A DNA stretch of 45,530 bases. Origin: Sphingomonas sp. (GTDB lineage Bacteria > Pseudomonadota > Alphaproteobacteria > Sphingomonadales > Sphingomonadaceae). Within the stretch, counting starts at the first letter, position 1. Each line of letters begins with the position of its first letter. Of the stretch, positions 11,398 through 45,530 are shown piece after piece. The notes beneath the pieces were generated by a model. The model was not told where the DNA came from, searched no databases, and saw only the letters and a list, made by a program, of their open reading frames with translations. The stretch lies in assembly GCA_013816595.1 (NCBI GenBank), contig JACDEB010000006.1, forward strand, positions 1-45,530, read 5' to 3'. The position numbers and the translations under genes were made by a program.

Positions 11398-13671
11398 ATG
11401 GCCGATTCCGAAACCACTTCCGTCATTGAAACGCCGTTCGATGCGGCATTGTCCGAACGTTATCTGGTCTATGCGCTGTCGACGATCACCGCGCGCTCGC
11501 TGCCCGATGTCCGCGACGGCCTGAAGCCCGTTCACCGCCGCTTGTTGTGGGCGATGCGGCTGCTCAAGCTGGATCCCGCGGGAGGTGCTGGCGGCACGCT
11601 CGCCCGGCGCGAGCGCAACACGACACCGTATAAGAAATCGGCGCGGGTGGTCGGCGATGTCATCGGCAAATATCACCCGCACGGCGACCAGAGCGTCTAT
11701 GATGCGATGGTCCGCCTCGCTCAGGATTTCGCGCTGCGCTATCCATTGGTCGACGGCCAGGGCAATTTCGGCAACATCGATGGCGATAATGCAGCCGCCT
11801 ATCGCTACACCGAAGCGCGGCTGACGGCGGTCGCGGCGCAATTGATGGCTGGGCTCGACGAAGGAACGGTCGCCTATCGGCCGACCTATAATGGTGAGGA
11901 CGACGAGCCCGAAATATTCCCCGGCCTGTTCCCCAATTTGCTGGCCAATGGCGCCAGTGGGATCGCGGTCGGTATGGCGACCAGCATCCCGCCGCATAAT
12001 GTGCGCGAGCTGGCCGATGCGGCGGCAGCGCTGATCGACGATCGCCGGCTCGATGACCGGGCCCTGTTGCAATTCGTACGCGGCCCGGACTTTCCGACCG
12101 GCGGCGTGTTGATCGACGATGAGGACATGGTCGCCAAGGCCTATGTCAGCGGCCGCGGCTCCTTCCGGATCCGCGCGAAAATTGAAAAGGTCAGCGAGAA
12201 GGGCGGCGGCTGGCACCTGCTGGTCAGCGAAATCCCGTATGGCGTTCAAAAAGGCAAATTGATCGAGCAGATCGCAGGCCTGATCGGCGACAAGAAACTG
12301 CCGATCCTGGCCGACGTTCGCGACGAGAGCGCCGAGGATCTGCGGATCATCCTGGAGCCCCGCAGCAGGACCGTCGATCCGGCTTTGCTCGAGGAGAGCC
12401 TATATCGCCTGACTGACCTTGAAACCCGCTTCCCGCTCAACCTCAATGTCCTCGACAAGGAGCGCACGCCGGGGGTCATGAGCCTCAAGGAAGTTCTTCT
12501 GGCATGGCTCGATTTCCAGTTCGATGTGCTGGTCAATCGATTGCTCCACCGGATGGCCAAGATCGACGACCGGCTCGAGCTGGTGGCGGGTTTCCTGATC
12601 GCGTTCCTCAACCTCGACCGGATCATCGCCATCATTCGCTCCGAGGACGAACCCAAGCCGGTGATGATCGCCGAATTCGGACTGACCGATCGTCAGGCCG
12701 AAGCGATCCTCAACATGCGCTTGCGGACATTGCGGCGGCTCGAGGAAGCGGAGCTGGCCAAGGAACGCGCGGCGCTGACCAAGGAGCGTGAGGAACTGGC
12801 CCGGCTGGTGGGCAGCCGCGAGCGCCAGAAAACCCGCCTCAAACGCGACCTCGAGGCAATGCGCGAGCGGTTTGGCGATGATCGGCGGACCGCGATCCGG
12901 CCCGAAGCGGCCACTGCCCGGACGGAGATCGACTGGAGCCAGATGATCGAGAAGGAGCCGATCACGGTGATGCTGTCGCAACGCGGCTGGGTCCGGGCGA
13001 TGAAGGGTCATGCCGCGCTTGGCGAAGTTGCCGAGATGAAATGGCGCGAAGGCGACGGCCCGTTCATCCATTTTCACGCCCAGACCACCGACCGCCTCGC
13101 TTTGTTCGCGTCGAACGGGCGGGTGTACACGCTTGCAGCCGACAAATTGCCCGGCGCGCGCGGCTTTGGGGAACCGGTGCGGTTGTTCATTGATCTCGAG
13201 GCCGAGGTCGATATCGTCGCGCTGCTGCTGCTTAGGCCAGACATGAAGCTGCTGATTGCCTCGTCCGACGGGCGCGGCTTCGTCGCTACGGGCGAGGCGG
13301 TGTTGGGCGAAACCCGCAAGGGCAAGCAGCTGGTCAACCTCCGCCCCAGTGCCCGGGTCGCAGTCATCCGCCGCATCCCCGACGGCGCCGATGCGGTCGT
13401 TGCGATCGGCGAAAACCGCAAGATGCTGGTCTTTCCTTTATCCGAATTGCCCGAACTCGGGCGCGGGCAGGGGGTCACCCTGCAACGCTATCGCGACGGC
13501 GGTCTGTCGGATGCGATTGCGGTTCGGATGGCCGATGGGTTGAGCTGGACGCTGGGCGGCGAGACCGGCCGGACCAGGACCGAAGGCGACCTTAATGCAT
13601 GGCGCGCGGCGCGCGGCGCGGCGGGGCGCATGCCGCCGATCGGATTCCCGCGCGACAACCGGTTCGAATAA
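11398..13671 (+). CDS. parC: DNA topoisomerase IV subunit A
   Basis: ParC cuts and rejoins DNA in the ParC2ParE2 enzyme that decatenates daughter chromosomes. The 757-residue product has the breakage-reunion domain with [20 protein letters not shown] near the N-terminus, the catalytic Tyr in [11 protein letters not shown] (about residue 136) and the coiled-coil/tower region (about 380-480). A C-terminal beta-pinwheel follows, from about 500 to 740. Length, and the absence of a GyrA-box QRRGGKG motif in the C-terminal part, favour ParC over GyrA. In the quinolone-resistance region it reads [15 protein letters not shown], so the position equal to E. coli ParC Ser80 is Gln and Glu84 is Asp. No parE is adjacent. 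The 84 bases before the ATG hold no obvious hairpin. Confidence 0.95.
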
Positions 13672-38140: not shown

Positions 38141-39333
38141 CGCCGCTGGCGGGCGTCAAGGTGCTCGACTTGAGCCGCGTGCTCGCAGGGCCGTGGTGCA
38201 CCCAATTGCTCGCCGACCTTGGCGCCGAGGTCACCAAGATCGAGCGGCCCGGGGTTGGCGACGACACCCGCCACTGGGGCCCGCCGTGGCATGGCGAGGG
38301 CGACGCCCGCGTGTCCGCCTATTTCCTCAGCTGCAACCGCGGCAAGAAATCGGCGGCGATCGATTTCGGACGCGAAGAAGGCGCGGCGATCGTCCGGCGT
38401 CTGGCGGCCGAGGCCGATGTGCTGGTCGAAAATTTCAAGGTCGGTGGACTGGCCAAGTTCGGGCTCGACGCGGACAGCCTGCGCGCCGCCAACCCGCGCC
38501 TAATCTTCGCCTCGATCACCGGCTTCGGCCAAGACGGTCCATATGCCGACCGCGCGGGTTACGACTACATCATCCAGGGCATGGGCGGGCTGATGAGCAT
38601 CACCGGTTTGCCCGATGGCGAGCCGGGCGGGGGACCGATGCGGGTCGGAGTCGCGGTCGCCGATTTGTTCACCGGATTATATACCGCGGTCGCAGTCCTC
38701 GCTGCACTGTTCCAGCGCGAACGGTCAGGGCAGGGCGCGCATATCGACATGGCTTTGTTCGACACCCAGCTGGCGATGCTCGCCAATCAGGCGACCAACC
38801 AGCTGGTTTTGGGCATCGACCCGGTGCGGCAGGGGGTCGGACATCCCAATCTTGTGCCCTATCAGCCGTTCGACGCGGCGGATCAGCCGATCATCATCGC
38901 CATCGGCAATGAGCGCCAGTTCGACCGGCTCGCGGCCATTCTTGGCCATGAGGAATGGAGCAAGGACGAGCGTTTCGCCAGCAATGCAGCGCGGGTCGCC
39001 AATCGGACCGCGCTGGTCGCGCTTATCGCGGACAAAATCGCGACCCGGAGCGCGGCTGAGTGGCTCGACCGGCTTGAGGCTGCCGGAATACCCGCGGGGC
39101 CGATCAATCGCATCAGCCAGGCCCTGAGCGACGTTCAGGCTCAGCACCGGGCGATGGTCCGGAACATGGCCGGAATGTCGCTCGTCGGCTCTCCGCTGCG
39201 CCTGGATGGCGAACGATTGGACAGCGATTTGCCGCCGCCGGCCCTGGGCGAACATAGCGCGATGATATTGAAAAGCCTCGGTCTCACGGAGACCGAGGCT
39301 CAACAGTTGCGGAAAGCCGGCATTACCGGCTGA
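38137..39333 (+). CDS. CaiB/BaiF family CoA transferase
   Basis: A class III CoA transferase of 398 residues that moves CoA between carboxylic acids. The opening GVKVLDLSRVLAGPWCTQLL with LGAEVTKIERPGVGDDTR and the SCNRGKKSAAIDF stretch is standard, and the catalytic Asp lies in RAGYDYIIQGMGGLMSITG (about residue 145). GTG 38137 overlaps the preceding stop (GTGA) and has TTGGAG about 9 bases upstream; TTG 38122 is an alternative. The acid substrate is unknown; pairing with a PYROXD2-like flavoprotein suggests acyl-CoA degradation but proves nothing. A 12-bp perfect inverted repeat in its 3' codons doubles as a terminator for the opposite strand. Confidence 0.93.
   Translation: MTPLAGVKVLDLSRVLAGPWCTQLLADLGAEVTKIERPGVGDDTRHWGPPWHGEGDARVSAYFLSCNRGKKSAAIDFGREEGAAIVRRLAAEADVLVENFKVGGLAKFGLDADSLRAANPRLIFASITGFGQDGPYADRAGYDYIIQGMGGLMSITGLPDGEPGGGPMRVGVAVADLFTGLYTAVAVLAALFQRERSGQGAHIDMALFDTQLAMLANQATNQLVLGIDPVRQGVGHPNLVPYQPFDAADQPIIIAIGNERQFDRLAAILGHEEWSKDERFASNAARVANRTALVALIADKIATRSAAEWLDRLEAAGIPAGPINRISQALSDVQAQHRAMVRNMAGMSLVGSPLRLDGERLDSDLPPPALGEHSAMILKSLGLTETEAQQLRKAGITG
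39271..39300 (-). terminator. Intrinsic terminator inside the convergent CoA transferase gene
   Basis: AGCCTCGGTCTC (39274-39285) pairs perfectly with GAGACCGAGGCT (39289-39300) around ACG. Read on the minus strand the 12-bp stem runs into TTTT (complement of AAAA 39271-39274), the form of a Rho-independent terminator. It lies 44 bases past the stop of the last minus-strand gene at 39344, and within codons for SLGLTETEA of the CoA transferase. Confidence 0.85.
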
Positions 39334-39343
39334 CCGAACGGGC

Positions 39344-40027
39344 TTATTTGCCCATTTTGCTCGCGCTATCGACCAGCACGTCGAGCTGGTTTTCACAGCC
39401 ATTCTCGATCAGCACCTGGGCCGCGCCGACCAGATCGTCGCCGGAAGCCGGGACCTGGATGATGGTGACGTTGCTTTTCTCGCCGGTGTCTTGCCATTCG
39501 ATCTGATAATCGCCGCCATTGGTGGGTCTCAAGGCTGATGGCCAGGCAACCGAGCTGTTCCCGGCAACCCAGGTCACCGGCTGGACCGCGCCGTCAGCGG
39601 TGCGAATATTGATCGTCGCTTCGGCGGTGCTGTCCGGGCGCCATAATTGAAGTTTGGACACGTCGGTGATGCACACCTTGCCGGTCTGGGTGGCATCGAT
39701 GTCCCAAACACTCGGATTCTTGGCGATTTCGCCGGCGCGAAGGGCACCAAAGCGGCCGCGCTTGCTCGCCGCCGAGGCCAGGCTGACCGTGCTGGTGTTG
39801 AAATTGCCGGGGCCGCGCAATGTCTGTGCGCTATTGGGCCCAAGGACCGTCACGACATCGCCGCCCTGAAGCGTGATCTTCGCACTTTCCGTCAGGGTCT
39901 TGCCCGGCGGATAGGCCTTTGACGACGGACCCAGAGACCGCACGACGACTACGCTTGCGACCGCTGCGGTCGAAGATAGGCCAACCGCGGTCGCGGCCCC
40001 TACCAGCCAAAGCCTTGCTTTCATCAT
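39344..40027 (-). CDS. Exported protein of unknown function, FecR-like beginning
   Basis: A 227-residue exported protein. ATG 40027 is preceded by GGGAG and begins a signal peptide (MMKARLWLVGAATAVGLSS, then TAAVAS). The mature part starts VVVVRSLGPSSKAYPPGKTL and continues AKITLQGGDVVTVLGPNSAQ and TLRGPGNF. This resembles the FecR-type strand pattern seen in periplasmic proteins next to CHAT or caspase-like genes in sphingomonads; this is recall, not a search. Two cysteines (KVCITDV and ENGCENQ) may form a disulfide. It is the last gene of the minus-strand envelope cluster, 10 bases after the ClpP-like gene. No catalytic motif is seen. Confidence 0.75.
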   Translation of the reverse strand: MMKARLWLVGAATAVGLSSTAAVASVVVVRSLGPSSKAYPPGKTLTESAKITLQGGDVVTVLGPNSAQTLRGPGNFNTSTVSLASAASKRGRFGALRAGEIAKNPSVWDIDATQTGKVCITDVSKLQLWRPDSTAEATINIRTADGAVQPVTWVAGNSSVAWPSALRPTNGGDYQIEWQDTGEKSNVTIIQVPASGDDLVGAAQVLIENGCENQLDVLVDSASKMGK

Positions 40028-40037
40028 TGCCACTCCC

Positions 40038-40742
40038 TCATTGCGCATTTGCGACATTATATTTGACCGCTTCCGTCGCGGTCAGGCAGCGGCGGGTCGA
40101 CTTGTCCTCGCCCGATGCAACTGCCTTTTGCTGATACATCACTTCCGTCAGTAATTTTCGGGATACGCCCATGCGAATAAGGAAGTCATTATCCTCACTC
40201 GCGAGAATTGCCGAGTCCTGTTCGACATCGCCGATCAGTCCGATTGCGCTATCGGTCCCCTTGGACAGTTCGGAACGAACCGCTTCCTTGTCACCGACGT
40301 GCGTGAACATGTGTACCACGAACAGGCCGCTGGGATCGACGAAGCGAATGGATCCGCCCATGAACATGAAATTGCACGCCGAAAAACAGGCCCAGCCGGC
40401 GGGGATGCGGGTCGGAACGCCGCTTTCGCGGATGACCTTGCCAGCGGCATTGCCGGCGCGCGCATCACCGCCGGGCGAACGGATCCAGATTTCATCGATC
40501 GGGCTGTTGCTGACAAGCGCATCTTTTAGGCGCAGCGGCACATCCTCGTCGATCCCGCCTTCGGCCCGAAGGACCTTCAATCCCTCGATCGTCTCGGCGG
40601 TGAATTTCATCCGCGGATAGGTTGACCAGTTGAGCGCTTGGGGGCAGCTCGGATTGTGCGGATCGATCGGCGCCGCACTCGCAGTAGCGGTCACCAGCGT
40701 CAGCCCGAAGGCGGCAAAGTGGGTAAAGGCGCGAATGCGCAT
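40038..40742 (-). CDS. Exported ClpP/SppA-fold protein
   Basis: A 234-residue protein with a signal peptide (FTHFAAFGLTLVTATASA) and a ClpP-crotonase-like fold. The hallmarks are IRSPGGDARAGNAAG (residues 88-101, oxyanion-forming SPGG), the presumed nucleophile Ser121 in WACFSACNFMFMGG, and His144 in GLFVVHMFTHVG, in the spacing used by ClpP-type serine peptidases. The group corresponds to the periplasmic COG3904 proteins, whose activity is little studied. ATG 40742 is one base after the stop of the preceding gene. Such proteins could cleave peptides in the periplasm; substrate unknown. Cys33 and Cys219 may be bonded. Confidence 0.8.
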   Translation of the reverse strand: MRIRAFTHFAAFGLTLVTATASAAPIDPHNPSCPQALNWSTYPRMKFTAETIEGLKVLRAEGGIDEDVPLRLKDALVSNSPIDEIWIRSPGGDARAGNAAGKVIRESGVPTRIPAGWACFSACNFMFMGGSIRFVDPSGLFVVHMFTHVGDKEAVRSELSKGTDSAIGLIGDVEQDSAILASEDNDFLIRMGVSRKLLTEVMYQQKAVASGEDKSTRRCLTATEAVKYNVANAQ

Positions 40743-40743
40743 G

Positions 40744-41256
40744 TCAGACCCGTGCAAAGCCCTTGGCGCCGCGGGCACGGCACATCCGCTTCGGCACCGA
40801 CGTTTCCTCGCCATCGACAATGACGATATCGGTCACCGTCATGCATTGGCCGCCGTCGGCCAGTTTCTCCTCGCCGGTGACTTTGGATCGGCCCGAAACA
40901 TTGGAACGGCTCTCGCTTTTCCATGACGATTCGCTGCCGACGCCGCCGCGAATCGCCTGGTCGGTGGCTTGCGCGGCCTGCTGCTGTTCCTTGCAGTCGA
41001 GTAGATTGATGATCGCATCCGACAATAATGACCCGACCGGAAGCGCGATCCCAACGACACTGCTGGGCGCCCCGATACGACCCAATGCGCTGCTGGCAAG
41101 TCCGCCCAAGACGCTGCCAAACAAGGATTTCTTCGTTTTCGCGGCAGGGGTGTCGGCGCACTTCGCGGCGGCTTGTTGCGCGGCAACGGGCACCGCGCTC
41201 AACGCAACGATCGGTGCGGCGGCAATCAGCCCGGACAAGACCAAGGCACGCTTCAT
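40744..41256 (-). CDS. Exported glycine-zipper, surface-antigen-like protein
   Basis: A 170-residue exported protein with signal peptide (MKRALVLSGLIAAAPIVALS, then AVPVAA). The segment LFGSVLGGLASSALGRIG and VVGIALPVGSLLSDAI is glycine-zipper-like and may insert in a membrane. The C-terminus VSGRSKVTGEEK, GGQCMTVTDIVIVDGEETSV and PKRMCRARGA resembles the RT0821/17-kDa surface-antigen domain in shape (two Cys, a Gly/Ser-rich lead). No lipobox cysteine is visible. It is 85 bases after the PDZ sensor gene and one base before the ClpP-like gene, so all are likely in one transcript. Confidence 0.72.
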   Translation of the reverse strand: MKRALVLSGLIAAAPIVALSAVPVAAQQAAAKCADTPAAKTKKSLFGSVLGGLASSALGRIGAPSSVVGIALPVGSLLSDAIINLLDCKEQQQAAQATDQAIRGGVGSESSWKSESRSNVSGRSKVTGEEKLADGGQCMTVTDIVIVDGEETSVPKRMCRARGAKGFARV

Positions 41257-41341
41257 CTCAAACTCCCCCAGAAGAATGACTGAAATTATGCCTTGTTATG
41301 ACCCGGGTCAATGAACGAGAGGTTACAAAGCTTGATCCAGG

Positions 41342-43273
41342 TTACATTCCGAACGACAGCTCGAGGCGCTCGATACGCAGTCGATGTGATTCCATGAGGT
41401 CGAGCATTTCCTGCTTTTCGCGTTCGCGGTTGATGACGACGCGGAGCGATCGGGCGAACGGAACGACGACCCCTTCAAGCCCTTCGCGCTCATCCTTGCC
41501 GGCGATGCTTCCGTCGGGGCGTGGGCCGACCACCAGCCAGCCCATGTCATTGCCGCGTCCATCCTCGACCCGCACCCGCAGCGGAAATAATTTATCGTCC
41601 ATGTTGCAGTCGATCTTCTTTTCATCCTCGCCTTCATAAGGCTTGAAGGCGGCGAGCCAGCGCAGGACCTCGGCCTTGGTCACGCCGATCTGCTGCTTGA
41701 CCTCGCGGCCCATGATGAACGCCACCCGATGAGCATGAACCCCATCGGCGATGCGGGTGAGGACTTCGTCGACGAAATCCTGCAAACTGGCAACATCGCG
41801 CAAATCGCGCATGGCTTCGGGCAGGCCGTTCTTGAGTTCGAGCAGATTCTTGTGGAAATGGCGCTCGGCCCAGCCCTGGACCTTGGAATGGAGCGGCTGG
41901 ATGAGCGCCGTGGCCATGATCGCACCGACCATCGCGGCCGGGGTCTGGCTGCCCGAATAGAGGTTCTGCATCTGGGTGATGATGCCTTCCATCACCCCTG
42001 CAAAACCGGCACCCAGGGCCAAGGTGACGATGGCGATACTCGCGGTTTTGGAGATGATCGCTTCGGCGTCGTAGAGCCGGTAGCGGAGCAAGGCGATGAG
42101 CAGCCCAAGCTGGAGGATGAAGAAGCCCAGAGCATAGGACACGCCGGCCGCCATTTCGATCAGCAGCTGGCTGCCGAAGCTCGACGCCTCCCATTTCAAC
42201 AGGTCGCCGACGATCGAAATGCCGCGCAGCAAGGCGTAGCCGGTGAAGCCGAACAGCGCCCAGCGGATCTGCTGGCGAAGGTCGCTCGACGGGGTGTTGC
42301 GCATGCACCGAAGGAGCATCCACACCGCCATCATCATGAAGCCCAAAAAGGCCGCCTGATAGGTTTGTCCTTCGAGGAACATCAGCGAGGGAAGGAGAGC
42401 GAACAGCCCGACTAGACGCCACGACAGTCGGCCGTGCGGGAATAGCAAAATGCCGGCGAGAAGAAGCACATTGCCAAGGTCGAACAAGGCGACGTTGAGG
42501 AAGCGCGGGATGCCGACGTCGGCGAGGAAGGTCGCGGAGGGCTGCTCCGCGGCGATGGTGCACAACACCGCCAGCGAAAGGATCGAGCTGACCGCGTCAC
42601 GAGCATTGCGGCGATGGAGGATCCACGCCGCCCACAGCAGGAACGGGTAAAACAGCACATGCATCAAATCGATGAATTTGAGCATCTTGGGGCCGACGCC
42701 GAGCTCACGCGCGCTATTGTCTATATGGTTTTCGCCGGTGGTCAGCGTAACTTCGAGGGTCCGGCCTTCAGGGGTCTTGATGGTCAGCGGAACTTCGGCT
42801 TCGTCGGTGCCGAACAATAGATTGCCCATCGCGATATAGGCCGGATCATCGGCATGTTCGGCGAGATTCTGTTCGCTGACCGACATCTGGCGCGGCAACG
42901 GCAGTCCGTAAACCGCGACGATCTTGTCGCCCTTGCGCACGCCTTGCGATCGCGCTTCGGGTCCGACGGTATAGCGGATCAGGGTCGCGTCTTCGGGAGA
43001 GACCGCAACTCCGGTCCGGCTGCCGAGGAGCAGCTGCGAATTATTGTCCGGCGCGGTGTAGCGAAAATACAGGCCGATCATCGGCCCGAGCGTCGCCAGG
43101 ATGAAGGCAAGCGTCCACACAATCGAGAAAATGCGATGGGCGCGGGTATTGAACGGTGGAACCGCCGGCGGCAGCCGGATACGCTGCCACCATGAGCGCC
43201 CGGAAGCGGCGACAGTCGGGGAAATCGGCTGCACGACTGTCATTCCGGGCGTCGTTTCAGCGCGGATCGTCAT
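41342..43273 (-). CDS. PDZ and multi-TM sensor protein lacking a kinase domain
   Basis: A 643-residue membrane protein. After a 45-residue cytosolic lead, TM1 (IFSIVWTLAFILATLGPMIG) is followed by a periplasmic PDZ-like domain (about 83-180; VGPEARSQGVRKGDKIVAVY). About eight further helices follow (about 198-455). The late part RYRLYDAEAIISKTASIAIV, ending LIQPLHSKVQGWAERHFHKN, has the pattern seen in LytS/7TM-type sensor histidine kinases. From about residue 480 a GAF-like domain follows (LQDFVDEVLTRIADGVHAHR), then a coiled-coil end (NREREKQEMLDLMESHRLRI). There is no H-box or ATPase domain. It should sense an envelope signal and pass it on by protein contact. It lies 49 bases after the channel gene. 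Confidence 0.8.
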   Translation of the reverse strand: MTIRAETTPGMTVVQPISPTVAASGRSWWQRIRLPPAVPPFNTRAHRIFSIVWTLAFILATLGPMIGLYFRYTAPDNNSQLLLGSRTGVAVSPEDATLIRYTVGPEARSQGVRKGDKIVAVYGLPLPRQMSVSEQNLAEHADDPAYIAMGNLLFGTDEAEVPLTIKTPEGRTLEVTLTTGENHIDNSARELGVGPKMLKFIDLMHVLFYPFLLWAAWILHRRNARDAVSSILSLAVLCTIAAEQPSATFLADVGIPRFLNVALFDLGNVLLLAGILLFPHGRLSWRLVGLFALLPSLMFLEGQTYQAAFLGFMMMAVWMLLRCMRNTPSSDLRQQIRWALFGFTGYALLRGISIVGDLLKWEASSFGSQLLIEMAAGVSYALGFFILQLGLLIALLRYRLYDAEAIISKTASIAIVTLALGAGFAGVMEGIITQMQNLYSGSQTPAAMVGAIMATALIQPLHSKVQGWAERHFHKNLLELKNGLPEAMRDLRDVASLQDFVDEVLTRIADGVHAHRVAFIMGREVKQQIGVTKAEVLRWLAAFKPYEGEDEKKIDCNMDDKLFPLRVRVEDGRGNDMGWLVVGPRPDGSIAGKDEREGLEGVVVPFARSLRVVINREREKQEMLDLMESHRLRIERLELSFGM

Positions 43274-43322
43274 GGCGATATCATGGTCCCGGGCACAATT
43301 TGGCGCAATGACGTTGCGCAGG

Positions 43323-44141
43323 TCATCCCTTGTCCTTCGCTTTTTTCAAGGCTTCGCGAACCGCCGTGTTGGTGGCCTCCTTTTCCCGTTCGCGGTCCAT
43401 GGCCTCGGTAAAGCTGGCCGCGAACAGGCCGGTGGGCAGTGCAATCAGCATGACCCCCATGATCGCGATTACTCCGGCGAGGAACTTGCCCAGAGGCGTA
43501 ATCGGGAAGGTGTCGCCGTAGCCGACGGTGGTCAACGTGATGATTGCCCACCACATGGCGCGCGGAATGCTGCCGAATTTGTCCGGCTGGGCGTCGCCTT
43601 CGGCCCAGTAGAGAAGCGAGCCGGCGGTCAGGATCATCACCAGCAACATCCCGAGGATCAGCCCGAATTCCTGGCGTTTCTGGATGAAGGCTTCGCGCAG
43701 CAGCACCCAGGCTTTGGACGTCCGGCCGAGTTTGGCCAGCCGAAGCATCCGCAACACACGGAAGAAACGCAGCATCAGGCTTGGCGCGCCGCCGAACGCG
43801 AACAAAGCGGGGATGATCGCGAGCAGATCGATGATCGCGATCGGGGTCATCATGTAGCGGAGACGCGGGAAGCGATATTTGGCGAAGCGCGGATTTTCGA
43901 CCTCGACCCACGCCCGAGCGATATATTCGATGAGGAAAATGATCCCGATCGAGAATTCGACATTGTTCAACAGGCGCTCGCGGCCGTTGGAAATCACCGG
44001 CTCGGTGTCGATCACCGCCTCGATCACCGCGAAGACGATGAGAATGATCAGGCCGAAATTGACCGGCGACAGCCCCTTGCCCGGCCAGGCCGAGGGTTCG
44101 AGCTGGCGATAGGCCAGTTTGCGAAGTTGGATCAGCCCCAT
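43323..44141 (-). CDS. Voltage-gated K+ channel family protein
   Basis: A 272-residue ion transport protein. Six helices are visible: FGLIILIVFAVIEAVIDTE, FSIGIIFLIEYIARAW, MMTPIAIIDLLAIIPALFAF, a voltage-sensor helix MLRFFRVLRMLRLAKLGR with arginines every third residue, and LILGMLLVMILTAGSLLYW. The pore loop follows with selectivity filter TTVGYGD, then IAIMGVMLIALPTGLFAASF. A short charged tail (MDREREKEATNTAVREALKK) follows. ATG 44141 has GGGGGA just upstream; the ATG at 44183 adds a non-conserved lead. Family members conduct K+ across the inner membrane. Upstream is the XpaC-like gene (82-base gap) and downstream the PDZ sensor. Confidence 0.9.
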   Translation of the reverse strand: MGLIQLRKLAYRQLEPSAWPGKGLSPVNFGLIILIVFAVIEAVIDTEPVISNGRERLLNNVEFSIGIIFLIEYIARAWVEVENPRFAKYRFPRLRYMMTPIAIIDLLAIIPALFAFGGAPSLMLRFFRVLRMLRLAKLGRTSKAWVLLREAFIQKRQEFGLILGMLLVMILTAGSLLYWAEGDAQPDKFGSIPRAMWWAIITLTTVGYGDTFPITPLGKFLAGVIAIMGVMLIALPTGLFAASFTEAMDREREKEATNTAVREALKKAKDKG

Positions 44142-44223
44142 CTGATTCCCCCGATGCGTCGCGCAATTGCGGTGCAAGTGCAAAGGTCAAACTGCACGGG
44201 GACGCGCTCCCCTGCAATGGGTT

Positions 44224-45012
44224 TCAATTGTCGAGCGGTTGTTCGCCGTAGCGCGATTCGATGAACCGGCCCTGGGTTTCGAACGCTGCAAGGTCACCCT
44301 TGGCCAGTCGTTCGCCGGTTTCGTCGAGTGCCTCGCGTCCGGCGCGAAGCGCATCGACCAGCCGCTGGTCGACGCTGATCCCATCATTGTCATGATCCCC
44401 GCGATAGCCCGCGGGGACCGCAAGATAATGATCGATCAAATTGGGCAGATGCTTGCCCATCAGCCGCCGCGCATCCTGCGCCGCGGGTTCGAGCGGATCG
44501 ATTCGCTCGAGCGTAGGCTTGAGGTTGGGCAACGCCGCAAGCATCAGATCGACCTCCGACTGGGCCGGAGCCGGAAGCATCGCGCGCGCGCGATAGAGGT
44601 AGGAATCGAGTCGCTCGACCAGGACCGCGCTAGGCAAATCGGGGGCCGGAAGGGCGGGAGCCGATGACCGCCTCGACGAGGCCACGGCAAGGCCGACGAG
44701 GATTACACCGGCGGCGATCGCGAGGATCAGGCCGAACAGCCCGATCGGATTGACGAAACCGACGACCATGGTCGCGATCCACACCGCGAGGATGGCGAGG
44801 CCGACGCGCTTGGTGGTTCGCCCGAGCCCGGCATTGAGCCGCCGCCGCTCGCGCTGGGCGGCTGCCCGGGCGACCCCATCGCGTGAGGCCGAGCGGGCGA
44901 GCACATCGTCGGTGCGGGCGATCGAGCGGTCGGTCTTGACCGAAATCGCCGAGGCGCGCTCGAAGCTGTCTTCGGCGAGCGCGAACACGCGTCCAATATC
45001 GTTAGGGCTCAT
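44224..45012 (-). CDS. XpaC-like membrane protein, TelA partner
   Basis: A 262-residue protein with a charged N-terminal region (about 1-70), two membrane helices (GLAILAVWIATMVVGFV about 71-87; IGLFGLILAIAAGVILVGLA about 90-109) and a helical C-terminal domain (SYLYRARAMLPAPAQSEVDL, ALPNLKPTLERIDPL, ARRLMGKHLPNLIDHYLAVP). The last part has the pattern of the XpaC family (5-bromo-4-chloroindolyl phosphate hydrolysis family), which is commonly encoded beside TelA. It begins 9 bases after telA here. Function is unknown; the pair has been linked to resistance to tellurite, lantibiotics and cell-wall stress in other bacteria. Confidence 0.7.
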   Translation of the reverse strand: MSPNDIGRVFALAEDSFERASAISVKTDRSIARTDDVLARSASRDGVARAAAQRERRRLNAGLGRTTKRVGLAILAVWIATMVVGFVNPIGLFGLILAIAAGVILVGLAVASSRRSSAPALPAPDLPSAVLVERLDSYLYRARAMLPAPAQSEVDLMLAALPNLKPTLERIDPLEPAAQDARRLMGKHLPNLIDHYLAVPAGYRGDHDNDGISVDQRLVDALRAGREALDETGERLAKGDLAAFETQGRFIESRYGEQPLDN

Positions 45013-45021
45013 TTCTAAGCG

Positions 45022-45530
45022 TCACTTGGCCTCAAGCGCCTCGAACGGCGAGCTCTGGCTTTCGAGCTTGCCCTGGGCGACGCCCTCGGCGCGGGCAATA
45101 TAGCCCTTCGATTTCTCGACTTCCGTGCCCAGAGTGGCGACCGTCTGCTTCATGTTTTCGAGCGCCGCCAGTTTGAACGCGTCGATCTGATCCATCGTGT
45201 CGTAGATGTTCTGGAACGCCCGCTGAAGCGTTTCGAGCGGGATGGTCGAACTTGCCGCCTGCTCGTGGATCGCTGCCGATTGCGTCTTGAGCAGCTCGCC
45301 GGTGGTGTCGATCATGCTCGCGGTGGTGGTGTTGAGCGCGCTGACCTGTTCGAGCACCAGCCGCTGGTTCGACATCGCCGAGGCGACGGTGACCGCGGTT
45401 CGAAGCGCCGAAACGGTGGTGGTCGAGGCGCGATCGACCCCTTTGACCAGCTCGACATTGTTCTTCTTGACCAGATCGAGCGCGAGATAGCCCTGGACCG
45501 TGACCGCCATCTGGGTGAGCAGATCGGTGG
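45022..45530 (-). CDS. telA: Toxic anion resistance protein TelA, C-terminal part
   Basis: The gene enters from the right edge, so only the last about 169 residues are present. The sequence DLLTQMAVTVQGYLALDLVK, NNVELVKGVDRASTTTVSAL and AVTVASAMSNQRLVLEQVSA is the diagnostic TelA/KlaA C-terminal core. A long helical tail ends SQSSPFEALEAK. TelA-family proteins are cytoplasmic, coiled-coil-rich and membrane-associated; the mechanism of tellurite resistance is unsettled. The XpaC-like gene follows after 9 bases. The N-terminal half and promoter lie outside the window. Confidence 0.88.
   Translation of the reverse strand, partial: TDLLTQMAVTVQGYLALDLVKKNNVELVKGVDRASTTTVSALRTAVTVASAMSNQRLVLEQVSALNTTTASMIDTTGELLKTQSAAIHEQAASSTIPLETLQRAFQNIYDTMDQIDAFKLAALENMKQTVATLGTEVEKSKGYIARAEGVAQGKLESQSSPFEALEAK

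Follow-up and report, generated by a model that had tools for sequence, protein, structure and literature searches.

A modular TelA-linked gene set in Sphingomonas with a putative kinase-less sensor and a paired exported ClpP-fold protein

The window analyzed here, a stretch of 45,530 bases from Sphingomonas sp. (JACDEB010000006.1), is a whole contig (C48) of a 1.9 Mb genome that is 83% complete, and its end falls inside a gene for TelA. From this end, seven co-oriented open reading frames (ORFs), g1 to g7, follow each other on the minus strand, separated by 9, 40 or 82, 49, 85, 1 and 13 bases. If g7 starts at 40024, all gaps lie between 1 and 85 bases, as the initial annotation of this DNA had stated; from the first ATG, at 40057, g7 would overlap g6 by 20 bases. 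The window part of TelA (g1, 45022..45530, minus strand as are all features below unless noted) comprises its C-terminal region and matches Pfam PF05816 at E 7.9e-46 (157.1 bits against a cut-off of 30). Its N-terminal part is on contig C16 (inside 12627-13514 of locus L003), whose last 91 bases match the end of C48 at 99%; both contig pieces pass the Pfam cut-off, in agreement with the TelA label first given. Its immediate upstream neighbor on C16 is a divergent Flp-pilus gene that is Tad-like (L003 11930-12490; Pfam Tad 2.7e-7), making TelA the first gene of the set.

TelA is widespread, and to our knowledge its mechanism is unclear. Across our genus sample of 71 genomes, which includes the window's own, TelA occurred in 66 and g2 in 67, and the two were adjacent in 64 of the 65 genomes having both, whereas in the remaining one they fall on different contigs; TelA and g2 are a near-universal pair in the genus. 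The g2 protein (44224..45012), with one transmembrane (TM) region predicted from hydropathy, had been annotated as XpaC-like. The XpaC/Halogen_Hydrol model (PF10112) matched none of nine g2 proteins at E-values up to 1, and the window's own genome had no match to it; a true XpaC protein scored 110.6 bits. The best other Pfam match was DUF3040, in four members (best E 0.0018). Profile comparison by hhalign with an XpaC/PF10112 set nonetheless aligned 212 columns at E 1.6e-4 and 50% probability, three controls giving 0.057-0.42, which leaves a weak and remote likeness to XpaC.

Published work places XpaC and TelA in the CesSR-dependent cell-envelope stress response of Lactococcus and describes XpaC as up in a liaR mutant of Enterococcus, again within an envelope stress response (PMC3139573, PMC10269926, PMC12791056); TelA is also cited for nisin resistance in Listeria (PMC12791056). 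The locus resembles the xpaC-telA (yaaN) genes of Firmicutes (CesSR, LiaFSR) in that TelA stands beside a small membrane protein with weak XpaC likeness by profile comparison, and in that work the known genes belong to the reaction to membrane stress or to antimicrobials that act on the cell envelope. It differs in that TelA comes first, the Pfam model for XpaC does not recognize g2, and another five genes come after these two. An envelope-stress role of the pair in Sphingomonas would be an extrapolation from Gram-positive bacteria.

The third gene (g3, 43323..44183) encodes a voltage-gated K+ channel, as initially annotated, with a Pfam Ion_trans match at E 8.3e-28, Kv channels as Protein Data Bank (PDB) matches (best E 1.3e-29) and the K+ filter TVGYGD, read by eye. 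This channel is an optional module: it occupies the third slot in 6 of the 19 genomes with a g4 of the cluster type (defined below), and a close channel (264-302 bits) lies away from TelA in seven other genomes.

ComP-type PDZ-7TM (seven-transmembrane) sensor kinases combine a PDZ domain, a multi-TM core and a cytoplasmic sensory end, a layout that g4 (41342..43273) would share; g4 differs in having no recognized kinase domain and in a probable GAF-like domain and coiled coil at its end. The layout of PDZ, multi-TM and GAF-like parts proposed for g4 in the initial annotation receives weak but consistent support, pointing to a putative sensor. PDZ_6 was found in three of eight orthologues scanned (best E 0.0011; the window protein was not among the eight), and the window protein itself has no Pfam PDZ match. 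Its predicted model (mean predicted local distance difference test score, pLDDT, 71.5) gave fold matches to the PDZ domains of RseP, DegQ and DegS at E 0.1-0.2, and GAF domain chains were among its best matches (E 0.02-0.2). The idea that g4 alone lost a kinase was rejected, as seven paralogues from six genomes likewise end without one (by eye); the single paralogue scanned in Pfam had no match. Frameshift-split g4 genes were seen at L021/L032 (S. daechungensis), L133/L074 (S. sediminicola, where g5 and g6 are frameshift-split too) and L124/L029 (a metagenome-assembled genome, MAG), for which sequencing error and pseudogene formation are alike possible.

The most interesting part of the set is the g5-g6 pair. 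The g6 protein (40038..40742, with its most likely ATG start at 40742) carries a signal peptide, read by eye, and its predicted model adopts a ClpP/crotonase fold that places it in the ClpP superfamily, bearing out the initial fold label. Ser121 and His144 are found in all 41 g6 proteins, including one from Terriglobia and one from Acetobacteraceae; cysteines 119 and 123 are equally invariant (41/41), and cysteines 33 and 219 occur in 39 of the 41. COG3904-type periplasmic proteins presumably offer a possible label. While g6 shares the fold of ClpP and has its Ser and His in place, it differs from ClpP in its signal peptide, an Arg at the Asp position, the extra conserved cysteines and a fixed partner, g5, and its cluster holds no unfoldase gene; a strictly paired secreted ClpP-fold protein with no adjacent unfoldase gene would extend the known roles of the fold. 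A phage or plasmid origin of g6 was rejected, as the phage and plasmid collections searched held no close relative (tblastn matches to 24 phage and 161 plasmid records, all below 60% identity).

The partner g5 (40744..41256) encodes an exported protein that had been described as a glycine-zipper surface protein, a label that fits distant members of its family better than the window protein. The latter matched no Pfam family, neither 17kDa_Anti_2 nor a glycine-zipper model; of three further members from Sphingomonadales that were rescanned, two had no match and one matched only YidB (0.023). The family also includes a Terriglobia and two Acetobacteraceae members (L077-L079), and these alone among the rescanned proteins match the glycine-zipper and 17-kDa surface antigen models (PF16998, PF13488, PF13441; best 2.3e-7), one of them above its cut-off. 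Unlike those antigen families, the window g5 has no Pfam match and no lipobox by eye, and is tied to g6.

This tie is strict. All 14 genomes of the genus that have the pair carry the two genes next to each other, and a g6 profile search of genome contigs yielded 51 loci, all with g5 within 1 kb of g6 and 49 with both on the same strand. These loci belong to Sphingomonas, Sphingopyxis, Sphingosinicella, Sphingobium, Sphingorhabdus, Erythrobacter and kin, some unplaced MAGs and, more distantly, three MAGs of which two are Acetobacteraceae and one is from Terriglobia. In L054 and L057 (Sphingorhabdus) g5 is divergent from g6, and in L044 (Sphingosinicella) and L076 (a Sphingomonadales MAG) g6 is directly followed by another ORF of its family.

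The last gene (g7, 39344..40057, or to 40024 with the later start) encodes an exported orphan protein. Its initial label as FecR-like was rejected: FecR (PF04773) matched none of nine g7 proteins, the window's own genome had no match to it, and hhalign comparison with a FecR set drawn from nine loci of relatives gave an E of 0.064, inside the range of four controls (0.018-0.39). A PDB sequence search matched a biofilm-associated protein in two stretches (E 0.0023). For the single terminator formerly placed after g7, the candidate is a hairpin at 39315..39331 with a 6-bp core, in a region whose folding energy is -18.8 kcal/mol (z -2.9); only TTT follows it, and the terminator scan made no minus-strand call at the g7 end, both of its minus-strand calls falling inside g4 and its total of five comparing with 5.8 in shuffles. 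This weak terminator candidate overlaps the 3' end of a convergent CoA-transferase gene of the CaiB type, which ends 10 bases past g7 (Pfam 9.5e-126).

Conservation within the genus resolves the set into modules. For g4, 32 of the 71 genomes matched, and cluster-type g4 was counted in 19, namely 18 above 500 bits and G010, whose gene is in frameshifted pieces; paralogue rows of at most 296 bits were dropped. For g7, 33 genomes matched, of which the 18 above 250 bits were counted and the 15 weaker (at most 187 bits, not near TelA) were dropped. For g5, 14 genomes matched, a second match of 52 bits in G043 being dropped, and for g6, 17 matched, comprising 14 strong ones, a decayed one (G063) and two at 24 bits (G041, G051) that were left uncounted. 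In 17 of the 19 genomes with cluster-type g4, this gene and g2 are no more than 1.1 kb apart, five of the 17 having the channel between; G063 is bridged via two contig ends, and G075 is a true exception. Where the channel is missing (12 loci), 89-164 bases separate the matches to g2 and g4. Of the 19 genomes, 18 also have g7, within 1.5 kb of g4 in 17 of the 18. Together, g4 and g7 are a lineage-specific block downstream of TelA-g2 in about a quarter of the genomes. Of the 17 g4-g7 loci, 11 have the g5-g6 genes in the interval, and all seven genes occur in order in five genomes (the window's own, where they span the contig break, along with G015, G033, G047, and G074 with a split g4). Fisher tests of co-occurrence gave 6e-14 (g5, g6) and 6e-16 (g4, g7), values that overstate the evidence because the genomes share ancestry. 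The order nevertheless recurs in relatives whose g4 proteins are about 54% identical, which implies more than chance. That the genes should stay together in relatives had been set beforehand as a check, and they do so as linked modules rather than as a fixed seven-gene unit. At L125 (G063:C153, 1553-1902), only fragments of g6 remain in the interval from g4 to g7, and g5 was not found; this is a locus in the course of losing the g5-g6 pair.

Outside these loci, g5-g6 is a separate pair, usually found without g4 and g7, and alone in other genera. Seven of the 51 loci have g4 and g7, at least six of these being genomes also in the genus count, and five have TelA within the fetched flanks, some of which are short. 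In Sphingopyxis, for instance, the neighbors of g5-g6 are genes for an Rrf2 regulator and an HD-domain protein, and in S. deserti the g4-g5-g6-g7 genes lie between those for MutL and ketol-acid reductoisomerase. In FastTree phylogenies with midpoint roots, the g6 proteins of the genus cluster formed one clade (support 0.989), including a copy at its own locus (G077b), and the unlinked copies of G014 and G037 fell outside it. Most small groups are common to the trees of g4 and g7, which place the window's own pair (G000, G074) differently, and the TelA tree was poorly resolved.

We estimate a probability of roughly 55% that g1-g7 constitute a modular TelA envelope-stress operon. That the seven genes form a modular, linked set is very probable, whereas the assignment of g4, g6/g5, g7 and the channel to envelope stress is tentative. 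The set is real and conserved in part of one genus and, as judged from gene order and spacing, most likely an operon, for which we infer a single transcript and a joint function. In such an operon, a periplasmic PDZ domain of g4, above a multi-helix membrane core, would sense the state of the periplasm, and its cytoplasmic GAF-like domain and coiled coil would relay the signal to the TelA and XpaC-like proteins at the inner membrane. Periplasmic g6, with its conserved Ser-His pair, would process or hold its partner g5, with g7 as a possible further accessory exported part, and the K+ channel, where present, could repolarize the membrane and restore its potential. Linking TelA to a receptor-like protein and to an exported pair of a ClpP-fold and a surface protein gives a short list of testable partners. 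The set was rightly described at the outset as unusual, and we found no paper describing it, which is weak evidence as most subscription journals were outside the coverage of the search.

Several observations weigh against this interpretation. In S. deserti, the 10 kb retrieved to each side of the g4-g7 genes contain no TelA, and G075 (70% complete) has g4 mid-contig elsewhere, away from TelA-g2, and no g7. Five of the 17 g4-g7 loci have no g5-g6 and G063 retains only a g6 remnant, so that the modules can live apart. The genus counts are not independent, owing to shared ancestry, and at least six of those genomes are represented again among the 51 loci. None of the PDZ, GAF and 7TM fold matches of g4 reached below E 0.02 (best 0.024), and frameshifts break up the gene in G010, G053 and G074. 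The sole promoter-like match, at 40085-40056 on the minus strand, stands immediately before g7, where it would fit a separate g7 start; one such match was found in the stretch and 1.8 are expected by chance. Finally, the third catalytic position of ClpP, an Asp, is Arg in 39 of the 41 g6 proteins, as placed via the C-terminal register of the alignment; the complete Ser-His-Asp triad of MEROPS S14 is not present and proteolysis is thereby not assured.

The S. deserti locus would be consistent with two independent transcription units in a stable neighborhood, one of TelA-g2 and one of g4-g7, the latter serving separately to maintain the outer envelope. A copy of g5-g6-g7 about 264 kb away in G077 fits the same explanation, as do the flanking genes, which recur in relatives along with the set (Tad-like upstream, CaiB-type downstream). 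The short g2-g4 spacing in the channel-less loci and the proximity of cluster-type g4 to TelA-g2 in nearly all of its genomes argue against two units, which we regard as unlikely. The Tad-like gene upstream of TelA was also seen in L020 (4828-6174) and, by clustering, in L021/L032, L029, L031, L035 and L074; Pfam confirmed it in the window's own genome and in L020, and did not confirm the L021 ORF that was tried.

The Arg would also be consistent with g6 being no protease and instead using its ClpP fold to serve g5 as a chaperone, a scaffold or a different hydrolase, the pair assembling or displaying a surface protein, an explanation compatible with the operon. The conserved cysteines suggest a disulfide-stabilized secreted protein, and the strict pairing with a single partner points the same way, although the invariance of Ser121 and His144 suggests catalysis; a non-proteolytic g6 is a possibility that we hold only tentatively. 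Whether as enzyme and substrate or as chaperone and client, it is doubtful, though conceivable, that g5-g6 represents an undescribed periplasmic pair which, in Sphingomonas, has been built into the TelA operon alongside a PDZ-7TM-GAF receptor that lacks a kinase.

Membership of the cluster in a phage-defense or conflict island is highly improbable: no g1-g7 protein matched a known defense family in Pfam (no PADLOC search was made), and the TIR-TPR genes that would suggest such an island are on the opposite strand and absent from this position in the window, L019, L020, L021/L032, L035 and L074. Where present, they number one to three in tandem just past g7, at L029 (11435-13231), L030 (4771-10091) and L031 (11379-14925), and the one gene checked in each matches Pfam TIR_2, at E 1.3e-22, 1.4e-26 and 1.1e-25, respectively.

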